From positions 1-53,478 of the forward strand of contig JACWEI010000007.1 in the NCBI GenBank assembly GCA_014653625.1: a stretch of DNA of 53,478 bases, written 5' to 3'. The position numbers and the translations under genes were made by a program. Source of the DNA: Pelagibacterales bacterium SAG-MED39. Lineage in GTDB: Bacteria > Pseudomonadota > Alphaproteobacteria > Pelagibacterales > Pelagibacteraceae. Positions 1,221 to 32,622 of this stretch are shown one piece after another (the stretch's first letter is position 1; each line of letters begins with the position of its first letter). Under the pieces are notes generated by a model. The model did not search any database and was not told the origin of the DNA. It worked only from the letters and a program-made list of their open reading frames with translations.

Positions 1221-2650
1221 CTCCAACCACCGACCGATTTGACTTCTAAAAATTCATCAAGACCGTGTTGCCCTGCCTCTCGACCAATTCCAGAGTGTTT
1301 AAAACCACCAAAAGGAGCATCTACAGCAATACCAGCTCCATTTACATCTACCATTCCCGATCTTAATTTTCTCGCTACTCGTTTTACTTTTTCTGGATCT
1401 TTAGTTTGAATATAATTAGTTAGACCGTAAGGTGTGTCATTTGCTATTTCAATTGCTTGTTCCTCTGTATCAAAAGGTATTACAGACAATACAGGTCCAA
1501 AAATTTCTGTTCTAGCAACTTCCATATTATTATCAACATCTGCAAAAACTGTAGGTTTTACAAAATACCCTTTATCTAAACCTTCTGGTTTGCCAGGACC
1601 GCCTACAACTAATTTAGCACCTTCATCTATTCCTTTTTTAATTAAAGTTTGAATTTTGTTATATTGAGTTTCAGAAATTACTGGACCTATATGTTCTCCT
1701 TCTTTTTTTGGATCTCCTACTTCAAAATTTTCAGTATATTTTTTTAATCTCTCTATTGCTTCTTTATACATTGATTTTTCTACAAGCATTCTTGTTGGAG
1801 CATTGCATGATTGACCTGAATTTCTAAAACATCTTAAAGCCCCTCTTTCAATAGCTTCTGGATCAGCATCTTTAAATATAATGTTTGCACCCTTTCCACC
1901 TAATTCTAAACTCACTCTTTTAAAATCCTTTGCAGCATTTTGTGAAATTAAAGCTCCAGCTCTTGTTGAGCCAGTAAACGAGATCATGTTAACATCAGGA
2001 TGACTAGTTAATGCATCTCCTGTTGTAGCCCCATCACCATTTACTAAATTAAATACCCCTGCAGGAAATTTTGTTTCATCTATAAGTTCAGCTAAAATCA
2101 TCGATGATAATGGTGCTAGTTCAGATGGCTTTAAAACCATTGTACAACCAGAAGCTAATGCAGGCATAACCTTTAAACAAACTTGGTTCATTGGCCAATT
2201 CCATGGTGTAATAAGCGCACAAACTCCTTTTGGCTCATAAATTAATCTTTGATTAGGAGCATGTTCTCCAAGAGGTTTTTCAAATTCAAAGTTTTTTAGG
2301 TATCTAATAAAAGATTTTAAATGCGCAGCCCCAGTGCCTGCTTGTAATTTTGTTGCAAAATCTTTTGGTGCACCCATTTCAGTAGTAATTGCCACTGCAA
2401 TATCTGCCCATCTTTTTTTATAATTTTCGTAAAGTTTTTCTAATAACTTTATTCTTTCTTCTTTTGTTGAAAATGACCACGTTCTATATGCTTTTTTAGC
2501 TGAACTAACTGCTAGATCAACATCCTCTTTGTTTCCTAAAGATATAACTGCACAACTTTCCTCTGTAGCGGGATTTATTACTTTAATTTCTTCTGTACTT
2601 TTTGGTGCAATCCATTTTCCATCAATATAAAAGTTTTTTTTATTTTCCAT
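1217..2650 (-). CDS. NAD(P)-dependent aldehyde dehydrogenase
   Basis: This 477-residue soluble ALDH-superfamily enzyme oxidises an aldehyde to its acid. The NAD-binding segment around ITPWNWP, the catalytic Glu in LELGGKGAN, the catalytic Cys in NSGQSCNAP and the C-terminal PFGGFKHSGIGRE are all intact. It lies 20 bases downstream of agmatinase on the same strand with an AAAGG ribosome site before its ATG, so the two are probably one transcript. Agmatinase makes putrescine, whose oxidation passes through 4-aminobutyraldehyde, so an aminoaldehyde substrate is a reasonable inference. The sequence itself does not show the substrate, and succinate semialdehyde or another short aldehyde would fit equally well. 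Confidence 0.85.
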   Translation of the reverse strand: MENKKNFYIDGKWIAPKSTEEIKVINPATEESCAVISLGNKEDVDLAVSSAKKAYRTWSFSTKEERIKLLEKLYENYKKRWADIAVAITTEMGAPKDFATKLQAGTGAAHLKSFIRYLKNFEFEKPLGEHAPNQRLIYEPKGVCALITPWNWPMNQVCLKVMPALASGCTMVLKPSELAPLSSMILAELIDETKFPAGVFNLVNGDGATTGDALTSHPDVNMISFTGSTRAGALISQNAAKDFKRVSLELGGKGANIIFKDADPEAIERGALRCFRNSGQSCNAPTRMLVEKSMYKEAIERLKKYTENFEVGDPKKEGEHIGPVISETQYNKIQTLIKKGIDEGAKLVVGGPGKPEGLDKGYFVKPTVFADVDNNMEVARTEIFGPVLSVIPFDTEEQAIEIANDTPYGLTNYIQTKDPEKVKRVARKLRSGMVDVNGAGIAVDAPFGGFKHSGIGREAGQHGLDEFLEVKSVGGWS

Positions 2651-2670
2651 TTCAGACTACTAACCTTTCT

Positions 2671-3630
2671 TTATTTTTTTGCAAACAAATTAGTTAATTC
2701 ATATACAATTGTAGCAGCTGCTAGTGAAGTAACTTCTGCATGATCATATGCAGGTGAAACTTCTACTACGTCAGCGGAAATAAGGTTTAGACCTGACAGT
2801 CCACGAATAACATTAACCATTTCTCTTGTAGTCATTCCAGCAATTTCTGGAGTGCCTGTTCCAGGTGCAAAAGCAGGATCTAAAACATCAATATCAATTG
2901 ATAGATAAAGAGGGTTGTTCCCTACTCTTTTTTTAATTCTTTCTGCAATTTTATCTGTTCCTTGTGTTTGAAATTCATCACAATGAATGATCTTAAATCC
3001 AAAACTTTCATCATTTTTAATATCATCTCTACTATATAATGGACCTCTAATACCAACATGCATTGAAGCATCATCTAAAAATAAGTTTTCTTCTCTTGCT
3101 CTTCTAAAAGGAGTTCCATGCGTATATGGTGCGCCAAAGTAGGTGTCCCATGTATCTAAGTGCGCATCAAAATGAACTAGAGCTACTGGACCGTTGTTGA
3201 TTTTATTTATTGCTTTAAGCAAAGGAAAAGCAATTGTATGATCACCACCAAGGCTTATAATTCCACCAACTTTATTTAATAATTCCTCAGCACCAATCTC
3301 AATTTGTTTAATTGCTTCATTAATATTAAATGGATTACAAGTGATATCACCTGCATCTGCAACTTGTTGGACTTTAAAAGGCTCTACATCATAGCTTGGG
3401 TGATAATTTGTTCGTAAATGCCTTGAAGCTTGTCTTATACTTTGAGGGCCAAATCTTGCACCTGGTCTATAACTTGTACCAGCATCAAACGGAATTCCAA
3501 CAATTGCTACATCACAACTTTCGACATCTCTTAGTTCGGGTAATCTTGCAAATGTTGAGGGACCAGCAAACCGCGGTACTTTAGTTCCACTTACAGGTTG
3601 GATTGGATCTTTATTTCTTTTTTTTTTCAC
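2671..3630 (-). CDS. speB: agmatinase (ureohydrolase family)
   Basis: This 319-residue cytoplasmic binuclear manganese enzyme of the arginase/agmatinase family splits a guanidino compound, typically agmatine, into putrescine and urea. All metal motifs are present: GGDHTIAFP, HFDAHLDTWD and SIDIDVLDPAFAPGTGTPE. The N-terminal PVSGTKVPRFAGPSTFARLP resembles bacterial SpeB rather than arginase. The start used is a GTG at 3628-3630, because no ATG lies ahead of the conserved region. The aldehyde dehydrogenase follows directly, which suggests arginine or agmatine breakdown. Members of this family also include guanidinobutyrase and guanidinopropionase, so the exact guanidino substrate is inferred. 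Confidence 0.88.
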   Translation of the reverse strand: MKKKRNKDPIQPVSGTKVPRFAGPSTFARLPELRDVESCDVAIVGIPFDAGTSYRPGARFGPQSIRQASRHLRTNYHPSYDVEPFKVQQVADAGDITCNPFNINEAIKQIEIGAEELLNKVGGIISLGGDHTIAFPLLKAINKINNGPVALVHFDAHLDTWDTYFGAPYTHGTPFRRAREENLFLDDASMHVGIRGPLYSRDDIKNDESFGFKIIHCDEFQTQGTDKIAERIKKRVGNNPLYLSIDIDVLDPAFAPGTGTPEIAGMTTREMVNVIRGLSGLNLISADVVEVSPAYDHAEVTSLAAATIVYELTNLFAKK

Positions 3631-3683
3631 AGTAAAACTGTATCACATTCTTTTAATTTGGAATATCTTCTAAATATAGATTT

Positions 3684-4407
3684 ATGAACTTAATAAGATT
3701 AATTTTAATATCTTTATTTATCTTTACTCAGTTACAAGCTGATACAATTTATAATCTAATTAAAATTCCAAATCTCGAAATTTATGAAATAAACAAGTCT
3801 AATAAACTAAGATATCTTTATGCTAAACAGCCTTTCACAATTGGAATAGACAATAATATTAATTGTTTTAATTCAGAAAAAAAAGTTTTAGATGAAAAAT
3901 ATAAAATAATCCAAAAAAAATTTGGATAGATATAATCAAAAATTTTTAAAAAAAATTAATCTTAAATATATAGTTCTTTGTGAGGATTTATCTATTTCAA
4001 ATATTAATACTGCCGGGATACCTGATAATGTAATGAAAACTTTGATACTAGATGTAAAATTTAATGAAAAATATTTTGAAAGAGTAATTCATCATGAGGT
4101 ATTTCATATTATAAATGACAGTTTCAAAGAAGTATTTGATGAAAAAGTATGGTCTGATTTTAATGTAAAAGATTTCAAATATGCAGAATGTTCAACTTGC
4201 ACTGATAAAATAGGATTGGATACTTACAAAAAAACAGAGGGTTTTTTTACAGAATATTCTAGATCAACAGCTTCAGAAGATATGGCTGAAGTATTTTCAC
4301 ATTTAATGATTGACTCAAACTCTGATAATATTGATCCAATTTTAGAAAAAAAGATACAATTCATAAAAAATAATTTATTAAAAATTGATGAGAATTTTAT
4401 TTTATGA
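3684..4407 (+). pseudogene. secreted HExxH zinc-metallopeptidase-like protein, split by a frameshift
   Basis: Two reading frames together make one protein of about 241 residues. The first (3684-3929) encodes a signal peptide ending near LQADTIYN and 60 more residues. It runs into a stop just after an A8 run at 3913-3920. The second frame is open through 4407 and holds HHEVFHIIND (an HExxH zinc motif), a CSTC pair, and SEDMAEVFSHL about 60 residues later, whose Glu could be a third, gluzincin-type ligand. Removing one A from the run joins the frames as ...IIQKNLDRYNQ.... The second frame alone has only a TTG start and no ribosome site, so it is not a separate gene. The frameshift may be a real mutation, transcript slippage or a consensus error. 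The substrate is unknown. The stop overlaps the next gene by four bases. Confidence 0.65.
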
Positions 4408-5051
4408 TTCAAAAGATTAAAGCTTCCAAATCAGAAAAAATAATTTTTATTTTCATAATTTGTTTAGCTATTTTTTCTTTAGGCTCTTTCCTTTTGATTA
4501 AAGATAAGTGTTTGTTTGTTAAAAATTATGATCCTGAAAAAATTAAATTTGATAAACCCAATAATATTGCGGTACTAAATGTACCTTGTGGAAATGTTAT
4601 TATTGAGCTTTATCCTGAAATTTCTCCTAATGGTGTAAAACGATTTATAACTTTAGTTAAGTCTAAAGCATATGATGATGTAGCTTTTCACAGAGTAATA
4701 AAAGATGCGCTCGTGCAAGCTGGAGATTTAGAGTTTGGTAAAAAAGAAGATATAGATTATGGAAAAATTGGAACAGGTAAATCTGGATTAGGAACTATTA
4801 ATTCTGAAGTTGATGCTCCATTCAATTTTGAAAAAGGGAGTGTCGCCTTAGCTAGAACTCAAAAATACAACACTGAAGATAGTCAATTTTTTATAGTATT
4901 GAGAGATGAACCTTTATACGAAACCGAATACACTCCAATTGGTAAGGTAGTTTATGGACTAAAAGCTTTAGAAAAAATTAAATATCTTGATAAATCACAA
5001 TATGTCTTAAGACCTGACTATATAAATACTTTAAGAATGTTAGTTGACTAA
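4404..5051 (+). CDS. membrane-anchored cyclophilin-type peptidyl-prolyl isomerase
   Basis: This 215-residue protein has one N-terminal membrane segment (residues about 13-31, IIFIFIICLAIFSLGSFLL) followed by a periplasmic cyclophilin domain. The domain carries the family signature around FHRVIKDALVQAGD, then GSVALART and SQFFIVLRD, matching the bacterial PpiA/PpiB core. It should speed cis-trans proline isomerisation in envelope proteins. Its ATG overlaps the stop of the preceding peptidase-like frame (ATGA), so the two are translationally coupled. It converges on the FadN-type gene with a 12-base overlap. The family assignment is secure. I leave the gene symbol open because anchored cyclophilins do not map cleanly onto ppiA or ppiB. 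Confidence 0.88.
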   Translation: MIQKIKASKSEKIIFIFIICLAIFSLGSFLLIKDKCLFVKNYDPEKIKFDKPNNIAVLNVPCGNVIIELYPEISPNGVKRFITLVKSKAYDDVAFHRVIKDALVQAGDLEFGKKEDIDYGKIGTGKSGLGTINSEVDAPFNFEKGSVALARTQKYNTEDSQFFIVLRDEPLYETEYTPIGKVVYGLKALEKIKYLDKSQYVLRPDYINTLRMLVD

Positions 5052-7262
5052 AGGTTTTCCAGTTTTTAATGTGTGTTTTATTCTATCCTTAGTTTTTTGA
5101 GTTTCCATTAATTTCATAAAGGCATCAAGTTCTAATTTAAATAAATCATCTTCAGATAGAGTTTTATCTATTGTGGTATCGCCACCACTTAATACATGAG
5201 CTAATTCTTTAGCAACTAGAACCCCATGATCTAAAATAACTTTATCGTTGTAAAGTTTATCTAAAATTTTATCCATTTCTCCTCTAACTGCTTTTCCTGG
5301 AAGTTTAAATTGTAATTCATTTGGCGCTTTAAAATCTTTGTTGTCTAAGAGAATTTTTTTTGAAACTTCTAACAAACTATTTCTATTCATTATTTTTTTA
5401 TCACTAGGCCTTAAATATTTCATTGGTTCTGCCTCGACTGGTGAAGAAGCTGTTCTTCCATATCCTATAATATCAAAAACTTTTAAAGGTGCATAATTAG
5501 GGTCTGCTTTTGCTTCATTAGTATCCAACCACCTAGCAAGCATTTCTTTACATCCTCCCCCTGCAGGAATTAAACCAACAAGAGTTTCAACTAATCCAAC
5601 TACTATATTTGTGTGTGAGGCTACAAAATTACTTTGAACCATCACTTCAAATCCACCTCCCAAAGTTAATCCTGACGGAGCTGAAATAACTGGATATTTT
5701 GAATACTTCAAATGTTTACAGGTTTCTTGAAAATATTTAATAAATTTTTCAATTGATTTGAAATCATTTTTATCTGCAAACTCCATTGTATAGGTTAAGT
5801 TAACCCCAGCAGAAAATTGCATACTTTCATTTATAATTATTAATGGTTTATCTGTTGCATTTTTTAGCGCATCCATTGAATCGTAATTCAAAGCGTTTGC
5901 TTTTGTTGTAAACTCGACAATGTTATAATCATTAAATCTATAGATTTTTGCTGAGTCATTTCCATCTATACTTGAGGCAGTTTTTTTTACTTTCCCTAAA
6001 GTTTCTATGTTTGTGTATTTTTGTCTCTCACCATAAAAATCCTCATTTTTGGTTTTTGATAAATTTTCTAAAAAACTGTTTTCAGTAAAATCATCAACTT
6101 TATCGAAAAAATTTTTAACACCTATTTCCTCAAGCATCTCAAAAGGACCTTTAGCCCAGTTAAAACCTAGTCTCATTGCTTCATCAATATCATTAAATTC
6201 TTTTGTAATACCTGGAACTAATGAAGAAGCATATTTAATTATTTTTGACAAAACTGACCAAGCATATTCACCATATTTATCTTTTCGATTGATTAATGCT
6301 CGTAAATCAACTTTATCGGATTTAACATCAATTTTTTTACTAGGAAAGTAATCTCCAGACTCAAGATTAATAGCTTCCATGACTTTTGAGGCTCCAGTTT
6401 TATTCATTCGATAAAATCCACCTTTGCCTTTACGTCCTGTGTAGCCTGTCTCAATCAATTTTTTTACTAATGGAATTTCTTTCGCAACTTCATGAAACTC
6501 ATCTGTATCTGGTAATTCTTTAATAAAACTTTTCAGTACATCGGCCATTAAATCGATCCCAATTAAATCATATAATCCGAATACACCTGTCTTAGGAATA
6601 CCCATGGGTCTTCCAAATATTGCATCTGCTTCCTCGACTGAAAGTTTCATTTTAAAAGCCTCTGTCATTGCAACTTGCATTGCATAAACCCCAACTCTGT
6701 TTCCTAAAAACCCTGGTGTATCATTGCAAATAATTGCACCTTTGCCCAGCTCAATTTCACAAAATTCTTTTAATTGATTAATTTTGTTAAGATCATTATT
6801 TTCATTTTTAACAATTTCTAAAAGCCCCATATATCTTACAGGGTTAAAAAAATGTGTAATGCAGAAATCTTTTTTTTCTACATCCGTTAAATGTTCAGAC
6901 AAAACTTTAATTGGAATAGACGATGTATTTGATGAAACTATTGCACCATCTTTTCTTGCTTTAAATATTTTTTCATAAATTTTATGCTTTATATCAATTC
7001 TTTCAACTACTGCTTCAACAATCCAGTCAGCATTTTTAACTACATCAAAGTCATCAGAAATATTTCCAACTTTAATATTATTTATTTTAGATTTATCAAT
7101 TAATAATGGAGGTCTTGATTTATGAATTCGATCTCTTGCATTTTCACTAATTTCTGTTTTTAAATCTAATAAAGTTACTGGTATGTTCGCATTACATAAA
7201 TGAGCAGCAATACCACTTCCCATTGTTCCAGAACCAATCACCACTACATTCTTAATTTTCAT
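5040..7262 (-). CDS. 3-hydroxyacyl-CoA dehydrogenase / enoyl-CoA hydratase fusion, FadN-type
   Basis: This 740-residue bifunctional beta-oxidation enzyme hydrates a trans-2-enoyl-CoA and oxidises the 3-hydroxyacyl-CoA with NAD. The order is dehydrogenase first and hydratase last. The Rossmann motif GSGTMGSGIA starts at residue 10, ITHFFNPVRYM holds the catalytic His, and GFLGNRVG follows. The crotonase domain from about residue 430 has both catalytic Glu positions (GGGFEVMVQ and VETLVGLIPAGGG). This is the order of Bacillus FadN, opposite to E. coli FadB, so I do not call it fadB. It sits 12 bases behind potC and probably shares the Pot transcript, although no chemical link to that transporter is evident. 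Confidence 0.9.
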   Translation of the reverse strand: MKIKNVVVIGSGTMGSGIAAHLCNANIPVTLLDLKTEISENARDRIHKSRPPLLIDKSKINNIKVGNISDDFDVVKNADWIVEAVVERIDIKHKIYEKIFKARKDGAIVSSNTSSIPIKVLSEHLTDVEKKDFCITHFFNPVRYMGLLEIVKNENNDLNKINQLKEFCEIELGKGAIICNDTPGFLGNRVGVYAMQVAMTEAFKMKLSVEEADAIFGRPMGIPKTGVFGLYDLIGIDLMADVLKSFIKELPDTDEFHEVAKEIPLVKKLIETGYTGRKGKGGFYRMNKTGASKVMEAINLESGDYFPSKKIDVKSDKVDLRALINRKDKYGEYAWSVLSKIIKYASSLVPGITKEFNDIDEAMRLGFNWAKGPFEMLEEIGVKNFFDKVDDFTENSFLENLSKTKNEDFYGERQKYTNIETLGKVKKTASSIDGNDSAKIYRFNDYNIVEFTTKANALNYDSMDALKNATDKPLIIINESMQFSAGVNLTYTMEFADKNDFKSIEKFIKYFQETCKHLKYSKYPVISAPSGLTLGGGFEVMVQSNFVASHTNIVVGLVETLVGLIPAGGGCKEMLARWLDTNEAKADPNYAPLKVFDIIGYGRTASSPVEAEPMKYLRPSDKKIMNRNSLLEVSKKILLDNKDFKAPNELQFKLPGKAVRGEMDKILDKLYNDKVILDHGVLVAKELAHVLSGGDTTIDKTLSEDDLFKLELDAFMKLMETQKTKDRIKHTLKTGKPLVN

Positions 7263-7274
7263 TAAATGATTTTA

Positions 7275-8129
7275 TTATCGGTTAATTCCTCTGAGTCTTT
7301 CAGATCTTCTTCTTAAAAGCTCAGCGGTAACTAATATTAATGTAGATAAAATAATTAAACAAGTTGCAACTGCAAGAATAGTTGGACTTAATTGTTCTCT
7401 TAAACCTGTCCACATCTGTATTGGTATTGTTGTATTTTCAAGTCCAGCTAAGAATAAAACAACTACAACTTCATCAAATGATGTTACGAATGCAAATAAA
7501 CCACCAGAAATTACACCAGGCAGAATTAATGGCAAAGTAATTTTCATAAACGTATTTACTGGATTGCTTCCAAGACTTGCGGCTGCCCTTGTTACACTGT
7601 GATCAAACCCTGATAAAGTCGCCGTTACCGTAATAACTACAAACGGGGTACCTAAAATAATATGTGCAAGAACTATTCCTGTATGTGTGGCTGCTAGTCC
7701 TGCTTTGGCCATAAAGAAAAAAATTGCTACACCTGAAATGATAAGAGGAACAATCATAGGAGAGATTAACACTGCCATGATGATACCTTTGTATGGCATA
7801 TGCCTACTACTCAAACCTAAAGCTGCAACAGTACCAAGTAGAACCGAGCCAATTGTAGCAAATATTGCGATTATAAAACTATTTTTTGCAGCCAAGCCCC
7901 AGGGGTTTTTTGTGCCATAAACCATATCTTTATACCATCTTAATGAAAAGGCATCAGGGTCTAAACTTTTCATACCATCAGAAAAACTTAAAAATTCTTC
8001 AGCATTAAAAGATAATGGAAATATTACAAACAAAGGTGCAATTAAAAAAAAGAATACTGAACCACAAATAAATAAATAAAAATAGTGCCAAATTCTATAA
8101 TGTAGTTCTGTATGTTTAGGTAAAGCCAT
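7275..8129 (-). CDS. potC: ABC transporter permease, PotC-type (polyamine family)
   Basis: This 284-residue inner-membrane permease has about six transmembrane segments. The cytoplasmic coupling helix region reads RAAASLGSNPVNTFMKITLPLILPG, close to the EAA loop consensus. It ends with a basic tail (LLRRRSERLRG). It pairs with the larger permease PotB immediately upstream (5-base gap) and with the PotD and PotA genes of the same operon to make a complete polyamine/opine-family importer. The first residues are cytoplasmic, and the first membrane segment contains FYLFICGSVFFFLIAPLFVI. The ligand is set by the binding protein and cannot be read from this subunit. Confidence 0.88.
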   Translation of the reverse strand: MALPKHTELHYRIWHYFYLFICGSVFFFLIAPLFVIFPLSFNAEEFLSFSDGMKSLDPDAFSLRWYKDMVYGTKNPWGLAAKNSFIIAIFATIGSVLLGTVAALGLSSRHMPYKGIIMAVLISPMIVPLIISGVAIFFFMAKAGLAATHTGIVLAHIILGTPFVVITVTATLSGFDHSVTRAAASLGSNPVNTFMKITLPLILPGVISGGLFAFVTSFDEVVVVLFLAGLENTTIPIQMWTGLREQLSPTILAVATCLIILSTLILVTAELLRRRSERLRGINR

Positions 8130-8134
8130 TTTTT

Positions 8135-9388
8135 TTATCCCAATTTAATATTGTCTATTCCAACTAATTTATTATATACCCAATAGATCGCTAAAACTCC
8201 AGCGAGTAACATTAGACCCATTGCAGATGCAAAACTCCAATCTAGTGTGCTCTTCATATGAAAAGCAATTTGGTTACTGATTAAAGTACCAGAAGCTCCT
8301 CCGACTAAGGCGGGTGTAATATAATAACCAATTGCCAATATAAAACACAACAAGCAACCAGCTCCAATACCAGGAATTGTTAAAGGAAAATAAACTTTCC
8401 AAAAAGCAACTATTGGAGTTCCACCTAGTGATTTTCCAGCTCTCATTAAGCTTGGTGAAATAGTTTTCATAACACTATAAAGAGGTAAAACCATAAAAGG
8501 CAGCAAAATTTGTGTCATCGCAACATACGTTCCAGTTTTATTATACATCATTTCTGGCCTTGCATCGTCAGCAACCAAACCTATTCCAACAAAGAAATCA
8601 TTTACCACCCCTTGTTGTTGCAACAAGATCATCCAACTGGCGGTTCTTACAAGTAATGATGTCCAAAAAGGAAGTAAGACACAGATCATTAATAAGTTAC
8701 TGTACTTCATGGGTAAAGTAGCTAACAAATGAGCTATTGGATAAGCCATCAAAAAACAAAACAATGTTACAAAAAATGCAATTTCTAAAGTTCTAAGCCA
8801 TAAAATTCTATGAATTCTCCTATCTTCTTCAACACTAACTATTTCTCCATTTTCATTTTTATACATATCCATACCTTTTAGATATTTTTGGCTTGTAAAT
8901 GCTGGGGCTCTTCGTTTAATTGCCTTCCAATATTCAACATTTGCCCATCTTTTGTGAACAGACATAATTTGTTCTTTATAGTTTCCTTCTTCAAAAGATT
9001 TTGACTTTCTTCTCAATTTTTTAATAATACTTTTAAAACCATTCTTTGTGTAATTAAGTTGTGTAGATAATTTTCCTTCACGTTTTTCATCAACTAACTT
9101 TCTGAAATCTAAATAAAATGCTTCAAAAACTTCTTCCTCTGGTAATTCTTTTCCATCCCACTTTTCCATAGCTTTAAAAGTTTTGGGAAGCATTTCAGTA
9201 ACCATCTTATCATCCACACTTCTCATGAGCATGTCTCCAATAGGAAACACATATGTGATGATTAAAAATAACAATAAAGGAGCAACAAGTAAAAAAGCTT
9301 TTATTTTATTTCTTCTTTCAGCTTTCTTTAAACTTACCTCTAAAGGAATTCCGTCAGTGGTTAAAATTTTTTTTGTTTCTGAGCTCAT
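8135..9388 (-). CDS. potB: ABC transporter permease, PotB-type, with enlarged first periplasmic loop
   Basis: This 417-residue inner-membrane permease is well above the roughly 280-310 residues of classical PotB. The extra length is one hydrophilic, charged stretch of about 150 residues between the first membrane segment (AFLLVAPLLLFLIITYVFP) and the second (LEIAFFVTLFCFLMAYP), which would face the periplasm. The C-terminal half has the EAA-like loop RAGKSLGGTPIVAFWKVYFP. No ribosome site separates the start codon from the U-tract of the terminator behind potD, and no later Met is plausible, so initiation is unusual. It forms the permease pair with PotC. The family is certain and the role of the loop is unknown. 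Confidence 0.87.
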   Translation of the reverse strand: MSSETKKILTTDGIPLEVSLKKAERRNKIKAFLLVAPLLLFLIITYVFPIGDMLMRSVDDKMVTEMLPKTFKAMEKWDGKELPEEEVFEAFYLDFRKLVDEKREGKLSTQLNYTKNGFKSIIKKLRRKSKSFEEGNYKEQIMSVHKRWANVEYWKAIKRRAPAFTSQKYLKGMDMYKNENGEIVSVEEDRRIHRILWLRTLEIAFFVTLFCFLMAYPIAHLLATLPMKYSNLLMICVLLPFWTSLLVRTASWMILLQQQGVVNDFFVGIGLVADDARPEMMYNKTGTYVAMTQILLPFMVLPLYSVMKTISPSLMRAGKSLGGTPIVAFWKVYFPLTIPGIGAGCLLCFILAIGYYITPALVGGASGTLISNQIAFHMKSTLDWSFASAMGLMLLAGVLAIYWVYNKLVGIDNIKLG

Positions 9389-29887: not shown

Positions 29888-29898
29888 ATTTTTAAAGA

Positions 29899-30603
29899 TT
29901 ACTCAAACGTATTTGTAATAACAGGAGCGCCTGGAAAAAAATCATTTCCATCACATGCACCATTACCACTACCACCATCATTAAATTCTAAAGCTTCTGA
30001 TAAATCAAAGGTCATTGTCATTGTTGGAATTTGACCTGGTTTAACAGTTAAGGGTTTAGATAATACCCATCTAAATTTTACAAAATCATGTGCTGCTTCT
30101 ACATTTGCTGGATCAGCATCTGTTCCATCAACTATAGCAGATGTGCTATTCATAGAAGTGGTCATATCTTCGCTGTTTGGCACCATTAAGACTTGTGCTG
30201 CTTCTGCAGCATTATTTGTTGCACCACCGGCAGCTTTAGTTCCAGCAGTTCCACCAGTCTTGCATGTAGCAGCACTGGTTACTACTGTTCCAGAAATAGT
30301 AAAAGTTCTACTTAATATTACTTGTCCGTGAGTATATGTTATACCTGGTGGTATTAAGCCAGCATTACCAAATGAATGTGCAGAACCTCTTACACTTAAA
30401 TCCATAGTTTTACCTGCAGTGCTGTTTCCAATTGTTGTTGGGTTAACACAATTAGTTAGGCTACTACCCGACTCACATAATTGCATTGCATGAACAGTAT
30501 TTTTAAAAGTTGTTGCTTCAGCTTTTACTAATTCTGCCATAGAACTGTTTATAGTTGAAATTAATAGTGCTAAGATTAATGCAAAATTTTTAATTATCTT
30601 CAT
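29899..30603 (-). CDS. secreted protein encoded behind the inverse-autotransporter barrel, function unknown
   Basis: This 234-residue exported protein has a signal peptide ending at NSSMA (residue 23). The mature part is rich in Thr, Ala, Gly, Ser and Asn with little Lys, beta-strand-like segments such as QVILSRTFTISGTVVTS, and few cysteines (LCESGSSLTNC, TCKTGG, GACDGN) that could form disulfides. It has no membrane anchor, prepilin motif or catalytic motif that I recognise. Base use is more GC-rich than its neighbours. It starts one base after the barrel gene stop (TAATATG), so the two are coupled, and it may be the surface or extracellular partner of that barrel. I recognise no family. Confidence 0.7.
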   Translation of the reverse strand: MKIIKNFALILALLISTINSSMAELVKAEATTFKNTVHAMQLCESGSSLTNCVNPTTIGNSTAGKTMDLSVRGSAHSFGNAGLIPPGITYTHGQVILSRTFTISGTVVTSAATCKTGGTAGTKAAGGATNNAAEAAQVLMVPNSEDMTTSMNSTSAIVDGTDADPANVEAAHDFVKFRWVLSKPLTVKPGQIPTMTMTFDLSEALEFNDGGSGNGACDGNDFFPGAPVITNTFE

Positions 30604-30604
30604 A

Positions 30605-31474
30605 TTATTTAGATGTAAAAATTACACTCCCTTGTATTTCAACTGTAAGATTGTTATTTCTTCGTACTTTATCTTTTAAAGCTGCTTGCATATTTTTCTT
30701 TTCAAAAGCAACATCTGATATTGCTTTCTTAGAAAGACTGTATTCTTTTTCTTGAGGTGGATAAATAAAGACAAATTCATAGTTGTATTCATCTTTAACA
30801 CCACTGATGCTTGAATTATCTAATTCAATATTAAATTGTAATGACGGATTTAGCATATTTTCTAAAGAATATATGTAACCCTTTTGATCATTGGAAGCTT
30901 TTTCATTTTCGTATCTGTAACCTCGTAGATTAAAAGTAGACCACGGTATATATGGAACTTGTGAACTGATGTTGTAATCATTTCCGCTTAGAATTTGCTC
31001 TTTAGTACCAGATATAACTTTTTGATTGGTAGCTTTTAAATATTGGTTAAAACTAAAATCAACTATTGCAGCTTTTACCTCTAAGCCATAACCAATTCTT
31101 TTATGACCTTCTTGAATGTCTGTGTCATAAAATACATTTGATCCAAACATAAAAGATTCATCAGGATTTAAAAATCGATATCCTAAACCCAAATTTCCAA
31201 CAAATCTTTTATCATCATTTATTTCTTGCGTATGAATACTAAATTGAGAAAATAAATTTGAGGTGTCTTTACTGATCACATCCCGCACACCTAAAATACT
31301 AAATTGATAATCTCCGCTTCCCTCATTATTATCTCTCAACTCAACTGATGCTTCTGTAATACCTTCTCCAGGTATCCAACCAGCAACATATTCTGAAATT
31401 TTATTTGACAGTTCATTTGCTGAAGAAACTGTCGAAATTATCAAGAATAATGCTACTGAAAAAATTTTTTTCAT
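30605..31474 (-). CDS. inverse autotransporter (intimin/invasin-type) beta-domain without a passenger
   Basis: This 289-residue outer-membrane barrel has a signal peptide ending near VSSAN (residue 19). The strands FVGNLGLGYRFLN, FMFGSNVFYDTDIQEGHKRIGYGLE and FSFNQYLKA, given here in part, match the IAT_beta domain (PF11924) that anchors intimin, invasin and FdeC. In those proteins the barrel is followed by a conserved RNNNIVLEY-like strand that leads into surface Ig domains. Here the matching RRNNNLTVE at residues 271-279 is followed by only ten residues and the stop. LysM, passenger and lectin domains are absent. It is directly followed by a separate secreted protein gene. Confidence 0.78.
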   Translation of the reverse strand: MKKIFSVALFLIISTVSSANELSNKISEYVAGWIPGEGITEASVELRDNNEGSGDYQFSILGVRDVISKDTSNLFSQFSIHTQEINDDKRFVGNLGLGYRFLNPDESFMFGSNVFYDTDIQEGHKRIGYGLEVKAAIVDFSFNQYLKATNQKVISGTKEQILSGNDYNISSQVPYIPWSTFNLRGYRYENEKASNDQKGYIYSLENMLNPSLQFNIELDNSSISGVKDEYNYEFVFIYPPQEKEYSLSKKAISDVAFEKKNMQAALKDKVRRNNNLTVEIQGSVIFTSK

Positions 31475-31562
31475 GAAATAGGTTTATAAAATTTAGACAA
31501 ATAATCAACTTTTTTAACCTCGCAGTTTGATCATTTTATCAACGAAAAGTGGTAAATTTTGA

Positions 31563-31904
31563 CTAAAAGAAAATATAATAGACAACCCAAGCTATCAAAG
31601 AGTACTCAAGAAAAACTTTGAATAATGAAAGTTTTTTTTCACTAAATTTTGAAACTAATAATTTCCTTAAAAAATAAAAACCTATGTGGACCAGTATTAC
31701 ACCAGAAGCTATCCCAATTATTGTAGATTGAATTGAAAAATTTTTATATCCAAAATAACAAGCTGCAATCAATGTTAACCAAGATACTTTCGATATAAAT
31801 AATTTAAAAATTAACCCAGCTTTTTTATCAAATACAGATTGTGTTTTTATAATAGAGTATGACCAGATTATCCCAGTTAGGAAAGTAATATATTTGATTA
31901 TCAA
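31563..31904 (-). CDS. hypothetical four-helix membrane protein
   Basis: This 113-residue protein has four hydrophobic segments (around residues 3-17, 40-52, 57-78 and 97-112) separated by short basic loops such as RKLLVSKFSEKK, a pattern of a small inner-membrane protein with cytoplasmic basic loops. I recognise no family. It overlaps the next upstream gene by four bases and is followed by an 88-base gap that leads to the barrel gene, so it probably ends the transcript that starts with the FkbM-HDAC-msrB group. Confidence 0.6.
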   Translation of the reverse strand: MIIKYITFLTGIIWSYSIIKTQSVFDKKAGLIFKLFISKVSWLTLIAACYFGYKNFSIQSTIIGIASGVILVHIGFYFLRKLLVSKFSEKKLSLFKVFLEYSLIAWVVYYIFF

Positions 31905-32245
31905 TCGATAACCTCAATTTCTTCGATAATGCTCACAATTTTTCCACCTTTAAGAACAGCGTTGACTAGTGCACATTTATAGTATGCATAAGAACTTTCT
32001 TCGGCTATTTGTTTAAGCTCTAAACATTTAGATCTACTTTCAGTAAATAAATGTTCTTTTAAATCCGGTGGGTCACCTAGATACATCATCAGCCCAATTA
32101 CCTCACCTTCTTTTTCAATTTCTGCTAGTTCTTCTATTTGTGCTACTCTTTTATCAACACCAATTTCAAAATTCTTAATTGCTACGAAGCCCTTGTATAC
32201 AATAAAGACTACGACTAAATAAAAAACGATCTTTATTTTGCTCAT
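31901..32245 (-). CDS. hypothetical membrane-anchored periplasmic protein
   Basis: This 114-residue protein has one N-terminal hydrophobic anchor (IKIVFYLVVVFIVYKGFVA, residues about 4-22) and an acidic domain outside the membrane with two cysteines (SKCLELKQ and YKCALVN) that could pair. The central GLMMYLGDPPDLKEHL is distinctive, but I do not recognise a family. It sits five bases behind msrB, so a role in envelope redox maintenance is possible, by context only. Confidence 0.6.
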   Translation of the reverse strand: MSKIKIVFYLVVVFIVYKGFVAIKNFEIGVDKRVAQIEELAEIEKEGEVIGLMMYLGDPPDLKEHLFTESRSKCLELKQIAEESSYAYYKCALVNAVLKGGKIVSIIEEIEVID

Positions 32246-32250
32246 ACTTG

Positions 32251-32622
32251 TTACGCCTCTTCTTTAAAAACTAAACAAACTCCATTATTACAATATCTTT
32301 TACCGGTTGGCTCTGGTCCATCTTCAAAAATATGTCCATGATGAGCATTACAATTTTTGCAATGATATTCAGTTCTAGCATAACCTAACAAATGATCTGT
32401 TTTTGTTTCAAATACATCGGGTAGTGACTTATAAAAAGATGGCCAACCTGAACCACTTTCATATTTAGCTTTGGAGCTAAACAATTTTATTTCACAATTA
32501 GCACAATGATATGTACCTTCACGTTTTTCACTATTAAGATCACTAGTGCCTGGAGGTTCTGTTCCATCTTCAAACATTACTAATTTTTGTTCTGCTGTAA
32601 GATTTGGATTTTTTTTAGTCAT
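32251..32622 (-). CDS. msrB: peptide-methionine (R)-S-oxide reductase
   Basis: This 123-residue cytoplasmic repair enzyme reduces methionine-R-sulfoxide in proteins. Four zinc cysteines are present as two CxxC pairs (Cys40/43 and Cys88/91), the substrate pocket has SGSGWPSFYK, and HGHIFEDGP and the catalytic Cys111 in KRYCNNG follow. Normal length for stand-alone MsrB. Its ATG abuts the upstream HDAC-family gene (shared base at 32622). No msrA gene is in the window. Confidence 0.93.
   Translation of the reverse strand: MTKKNPNLTAEQKLVMFEDGTEPPGTSDLNSEKREGTYHCANCEIKLFSSKAKYESGSGWPSFYKSLPDVFETKTDHLLGYARTEYHCKNCNAHHGHIFEDGPEPTGKRYCNNGVCLVFKEEA

Follow-up and report, generated by a model that had tools for sequence, protein, structure and literature searches.

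A single additional adenine interrupts the gene of a putative secreted zinc metallopeptidase in the genome of a SAR11 bacterium (Pelagibacteraceae; G000), and this interruption is very probably a lone, unprogrammed gain of one base in an A run of a gene that is normally intact. The break shows no sign of a programmed or conserved feature, although this does not in itself prove the extra base to be an error. The DNA under study, referred to as the window, is the whole stretch of 53,478 nucleotides analysed, which corresponds to bases 1-53478 of contig C61 of G000, an assembly of 926,793 bases in 63 contigs that is 78% complete.

A putative peptidase gene split at a run of eight adenines

The two parts of the gene and the features around them are compiled in Table 1. 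The original prediction placed the leader and the HEVFH motif in different reading frames with the break at the A8 run at 3913-3920 and, in addition, proposed an overlap of four bases with the downstream cyclophilin gene; the coordinates of the open reading frames bear out the former, and the latter is found as the ATGA at 4404 that joins the peptidase stop and the cyclophilin start. Two further A8 runs are located within the peptidase gene, at 3877-3884 and 3948-3955, neither of which breaks the frame. From the upstream part, the downstream frame is reached either by the loss of one A or by the gain of two.

Table 1. Coordinates of the interrupted peptidase gene and of associated features in the window
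Feature	Position	Strand	Description
Block about 95-100% identical to AG-390-A20	2400..6200		Contains the broken gene; adjoining stretches are about 84-92% identical
Arginase-family gene	2671..3630	-	Divergent, flanking context; PF00491, E 5.7e-95
Peptidase 5' part, 81-aa ORF	3684..3929	+	Hydrophobic signal-like leader, starts MNLIRLILISLFIFTQLQA; TAG at 3927-3929
A8 run	3913..3920	+	Exceeds by one base the A7 run with which AG-390-A20 stays in frame
Peptidase 3' part, 161-aa ORF from TTG	3922..4407	+	+1 frame; HEVFH and SEDMAE motifs; PF15890 Peptidase_Mx1-like
Cyclophilin-type peptidyl-prolyl isomerase	4404..5051	+	PF00160, E 6.3e-30; N-terminal hydrophobic segment (by eye)

The nearest copy of the gene, that of AG-390-A20 (locus L031 of genome G101), is intact, carries seven adenines at this site and shares 98% identity across 1,700 bases, with the extra A of the window as the sole gap in the alignment, which upholds the claim that the loss of one base rejoins the two halves. 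The 81-residue frame follows the AG-390-A20 protein up to residue 78 with one V/I difference (98.7% identity) and subsequently ends after three out-of-frame residues. The downstream half had been described as undecayed and, compared with AG-390-A20, it indeed appears so, as the alignment displays no further stop or indel in the gene and only one of the six changed codons of the 3' half is nonsynonymous. Synonymous and nonsynonymous codon changes in the order of the genes amount to 4/0 in the arginase gene, 0/1 in the N half and 5/1 in the C half of the peptidase gene and 13/6 in the cyclophilin gene. So few changes indicate that the frameshift is either young or not real. A decayed pseudogene was rejected as an explanation, as no disabling change has been added with respect to AG-390-A20, while the changes are too few to separate a very young null allele from an intact gene.

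Judged by its sequence, the block of elevated identity that contains the broken gene looks like a recent homologous-recombination tract. The mosaic identity covers the arginase, peptidase and cyclophilin genes and part of a gene for 740 amino acids, and a second block with 95-97.5% identity to AG-390-A20 is located at about 7400-8600. Elsewhere in the window, at 29888-32263, synteny with AG-390-A20 is broken save for one short 74% match (matches >300 bases considered), which characterizes this region as a variable segment.

The gene is unbroken in most of the related genomes that carry it

A match to the gene is present in 247 of 399 genomes of the same genus, sampled at one genome per species, and is missing from 11 of the 57 genomes that are at least 90% complete. 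The intact protein in the genus comprises about 240 residues. Window copy aside, the frame is open over 240 residues or more in 226 of the 246 other carriers, the homology of its 5' part having been checked for a subset of loci, while contig ends truncate the remaining 20. The partial matches or frames below 240 amino acids of these 20 were all judged to run into a contig end, so that only the parts present were assessed; the assignment was made from the extent of the contig (G056, G156, G109, G110, G129, G206, G258, G265, G278, G306 and G361), from match coordinates within 8 bases of the contig start (G023, G234, G239, G276, G346, G354, G360 and G419) or, in the case of G410, from its open frame. 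At 109 of 109 other loci (L002-L110, from two sources that overlap in genomes) the N half and the C half share one frame, and only the window copy (L001) has them in different frames.

Some of the truncated copies display peculiarities of their own. In G206 (locus L151; G206:C30, about 3012-3014) an in-frame TAA is found about 9 bases or less from the contig end, which is either a real nonsense codon or an edge error. A TAA flagged in G306 was dismissed, as one continuous frame extends up to the end of the protein. At the start of contig C15 of G023 (L229, 1-1200), a peptidase fragment is fused in frame and on one strand with the normally divergent arginase gene, an arrangement that resembles an inversion chimera of the kind made by amplification.

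Downstream, 117 of 139 complete loci retain the ATGA overlap with a cyclophilin homologue whose frame opens at this ATG. Four loci (L056, L066, L069 and L074) possess about 800-870 extra bases compared to the window at the cyclophilin end (window about 5040). A second, distant relative of the peptidase with 32% identity and an open frame of 357 residues is encoded by a single-contig genome of the genus (G012:C1:743906-744382).

Among 103 distinct intact open reading frames, the longest A run within the codons for residues 73-83 comprises three bases in 1, four in 18, five in 20, seven in 47, eight in 15 and nine in 2. The A run at this site is thus neither conserved nor unusual. A comparison of run length in close relatives had been proposed as a check on the break and is informative in that the nearest copy has A7; length alone, on the other hand, is no test, since the 15 A8 and 2 A9 frames are all open. 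These relatives stay in frame because the neighbouring, preceding codon differs.

A probable exported PF15890-type metallopeptidase

A defining feature of the PF15890 Peptidase_Mx1 family of putative zinc-binding metallopeptidases is an HExxH zinc motif that is followed further along the chain by an acidic ligand. In a profile search, the 3' half in the window matched PF15890 with an E-value of 5.2e-11 and 42.8 bits, above the gathering cut-off of 25.6, and the intact protein of AG-390-A20 with 40.7 bits equally exceeded this cut-off, the match spanning only about positions 67 to 206 of the 240 of the profile. Of the 139 complete loci, 38 representatives were aligned after removal of every sequence that shared at least 88% identity (ungapped, end-aligned) with a previously retained one, and all 38 matched PF15890 at E 0.01 or better. 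Invariant in these 38 sequences are H137, E138 and H141 together with E198, D199, M200, A201 and E202 (numbering of L031) and, in addition, four cysteines. This pattern suggests that the protein binds zinc, with one of the downstream acidic residues as the likely further ligand. Cumulatively, the gene product is probably an exported putative zinc metallopeptidase, with export and activity predicted from the leader and the motifs. The searches made turned up no described activity for SAR11 members, and the one paper retrieved on these families concerns Leptospira.

Comparison with other families delineates this assignment. Among solved structures, a profile search retrieved PDB 4l7a at E 1.7e-4, followed by weak matches to the substrate import-associated zinc metallohydrolase lipoprotein PDB 9urd (E 0.17) and to the polysaccharide deacetylases PDB 6hpa (E 0.093) and 7bkf (E 0.34). 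The LIC13305 lipoprotein family (NCBIfam NF047804) and the substrate import-associated zinc metallohydrolase lipoproteins (TIGR04549) share a similar HExxH region with the SAR11 protein, but membership in either was rejected, as the scores of 60.2 and 34.4 bits are far under the curated cut-offs of 250 and 75, respectively. Unlike these lipoprotein families, the SAR11 N-terminus as read (MNLIRLILISLFIFTQLQADTIYN) has no cysteine and consequently no lipobox. Weaker library matches comprised DUF5700, reached at E 0.01 by 28 of the 38 members with L031 under the cut-off, as well as NuBaID_C, COA8, SPACA7 and spore_ylxY. A search for viral relatives in IMG/VR returned 17 pattern matches with no relative among them.

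How reliable is the assembly at this site?

Split genes were sought by comparison of about 480 kb of G000, approximately half of the genome, with about 726 kb of AG-390-A20, using open reading frames of at least 120 amino acids with a homologue at 65% identity or more, a design that breaks near gene ends can escape. Only 1 of 237 comparable AG-390-A20 frames is split in G000, namely the peptidase, while the reverse direction gave 0 of 230; inside the window alone, the count is 1 of 59. As the 439 open reading frames of the 480 kb, about half of which were comparable, contain 721 A/T runs of at least eight bases, a single split shows that the G000 assembly is not full of homopolymer errors.

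For a marine single-cell workflow, 3.0 indels per 100 kb are given in PMC6122165, with the same figures in PMC8443664, and plate AG-390 is listed in the former. The shortest of 20 contigs of G000 retrieved measures 2,223 bases, which is compatible with the 2,000-base filter of this workflow but does not demonstrate its use. The quoted rate predicts 6.6 indels for the compared 219 kb, against one observed (probability of at most one, about 0.01), and as many as 5.3 for the peptidase gene across the 246 other carriers, none of which displays a clear frameshift. The excess of expected over observed events implies that indel errors are rarer in these assemblies than in the benchmark, which renders a technical origin of the break less compelling than the benchmark alone would suggest. 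Nevertheless, one indel in G000 needs no biological cause, and a single error is easy to accept. The otherwise clean assembly, the hundreds of long A/T runs located within open frames and the 226 unbroken copies together characterize the break as a single event.

Technical error or young null allele

Two readings of this single event stand out, and we infer that a technical error is slightly likelier than a genuine null mutation of very recent date. That the extra A arose during amplification, sequencing or assembly and that the gene of the living cell is intact has somewhat better than an even chance of being correct. The homopolymer position and the undecayed downstream half point in this direction, as does the finding that none of the 246 other carriers, 20 of them cut by contig ends, has a clear frameshift. 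Many relatives, moreover, bear the names of single-cell plates such as AG-390 in their titles, and about 3 indels per 100 kb are quoted for the corresponding workflow (PMC6122165). On the other hand, one split among 237 comparable genes stays below the benchmark prediction and describes an assembly that is not error-rich. Were G000 derived from one amplified cell, a mistake made early in the amplification would recur in its reads.

Sporadic singleton frameshifts are familiar in draft and single-cell bacterial assemblies. The window copy shares with them a one-base homopolymer indel, the restriction to one assembly and the undecayed remainder of the gene, and no feature was found in which it differs.

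An A run of eight is likewise an ordinary target of replication slippage, and a real and very recent null mutation, arisen in the A run after the block shared with the AG-390-A20 lineage, is a serious contender that falls only moderately short of even chances. The break would be young, as divergence from the closest intact copy, that of AG-390-A20, is just about 0-2% across 2601-4600, and part of the genus apparently manages without the gene, to judge from its lack of a match in 11 of the 57 most complete genomes. Against a real mutation stands the observation that no other clear null allele of the peptidase gene was found among the 246 other carriers of the genus and that, as reported in a review (PMC4285135), the genome of 'Ca. 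Pelagibacter ubique' HTCC1062 yielded no pseudogenes. A real pseudogene in SAR11 would accordingly be mildly unusual, yet unsurprising as a transient allele. With one genome sampled per species, an A8 allele carried by other cells of this population would have escaped notice.

If the DNA is taken at face value, the gene would direct synthesis of a secreted stub of 81 residues devoid of the catalytic motif, and a catalytic fragment devoid of the signal peptide would arise only if translation restarts. A stub and a leaderless fragment would not constitute a working secreted enzyme, and the frameshift would amount to a loss of function. Translation would, moreover, end 475 bases upstream of the cyclophilin start, and with such an early stop the expression of cyclophilin might fall too.

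Slippage and phase variation

Of the three options considered at the outset, a recent break and an error persist, while slippage on the A8 run is unlikely with respect to direction, length and base of the run, published precedent, the frame entered by -1 slippage and the uniqueness of the arrangement. It is very unlikely that transcriptional or ribosomal slippage yields a useful amount of full-length protein. Slippage on A/T runs is documented: the Citrobacter rodentium tssM gene is likewise interrupted at a poly-A run, where about 20-25% frameshifting occurs, single-base transcript deletions in homopolymers take place in Buchnera and rise with run length and, in lacZ runs of 7-11 A, insertions surpassed the compared class, presumably deletions, at least twofold in efficiency, so that deletion would be possible there (PMC4256274, PMC5574713 and PMC6260861, respectively). 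However, the tssM run consists of 11 adenines and is rescued by insertion (PMC4256274), while the window run of eight requires the loss of one A, or the gain of two, and is not conserved. With the RNA polymerase of E. coli, runs shorter than eight As gave no measurable activity, and none of the poly(A) runs studied there showed a deletion (PMC6260861). In the E. coli and Buchnera transcriptomes insertions prevail in homopolymers (A/T runs) and most deletions occur elsewhere, and not a single restored frame was detected (PMC5574713). Ribosomal slippage by -1 would lead into the third frame, with a stop at 3947. The junction itself also argues against rescue, as with up to two mismatches it is carried by 0 of 398 other genomes and matched only the genome of the window. 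Programmed or rescue frameshifting was consequently rejected: it needs a shift from frame 0 to +1, against the favoured direction of slippage, in an arrangement that is not conserved in relatives.

Equally improbable is the combination of a real A8 allele that segregates in the population with a loss of the peptidase that is tolerated or even used, for example as a shared leaky function, and with trace amounts of full-length protein produced via RNA polymerase slippage; as part of this reading, the polymerase of an AT-rich SAR11 genome might be more prone to slippage than its E. coli counterpart. Phase variation, with the run length kept as an on/off switch, would fit a homopolymer within the 5' third of a gene whose product is probably secreted. 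It is scarcely credible, since the length of the run is not conserved (39 of the 103 frames have only three to five A, and the runs of seven, eight and nine are in frame as well) and no clear off variant exists among the 246 other carriers.

Implications

The preferred reading of a lone one-base gain, be it an error or a very young null allele, illustrates that a frame break in one draft genome is to be weighed against relatives before recoding is proposed. As a by-product, the analysis uncovered a probable secreted PF15890-type zinc peptidase that is widespread in a SAR11 genus, where its gene mostly overlaps with a cyclophilin gene, and which merits attention in its own right.
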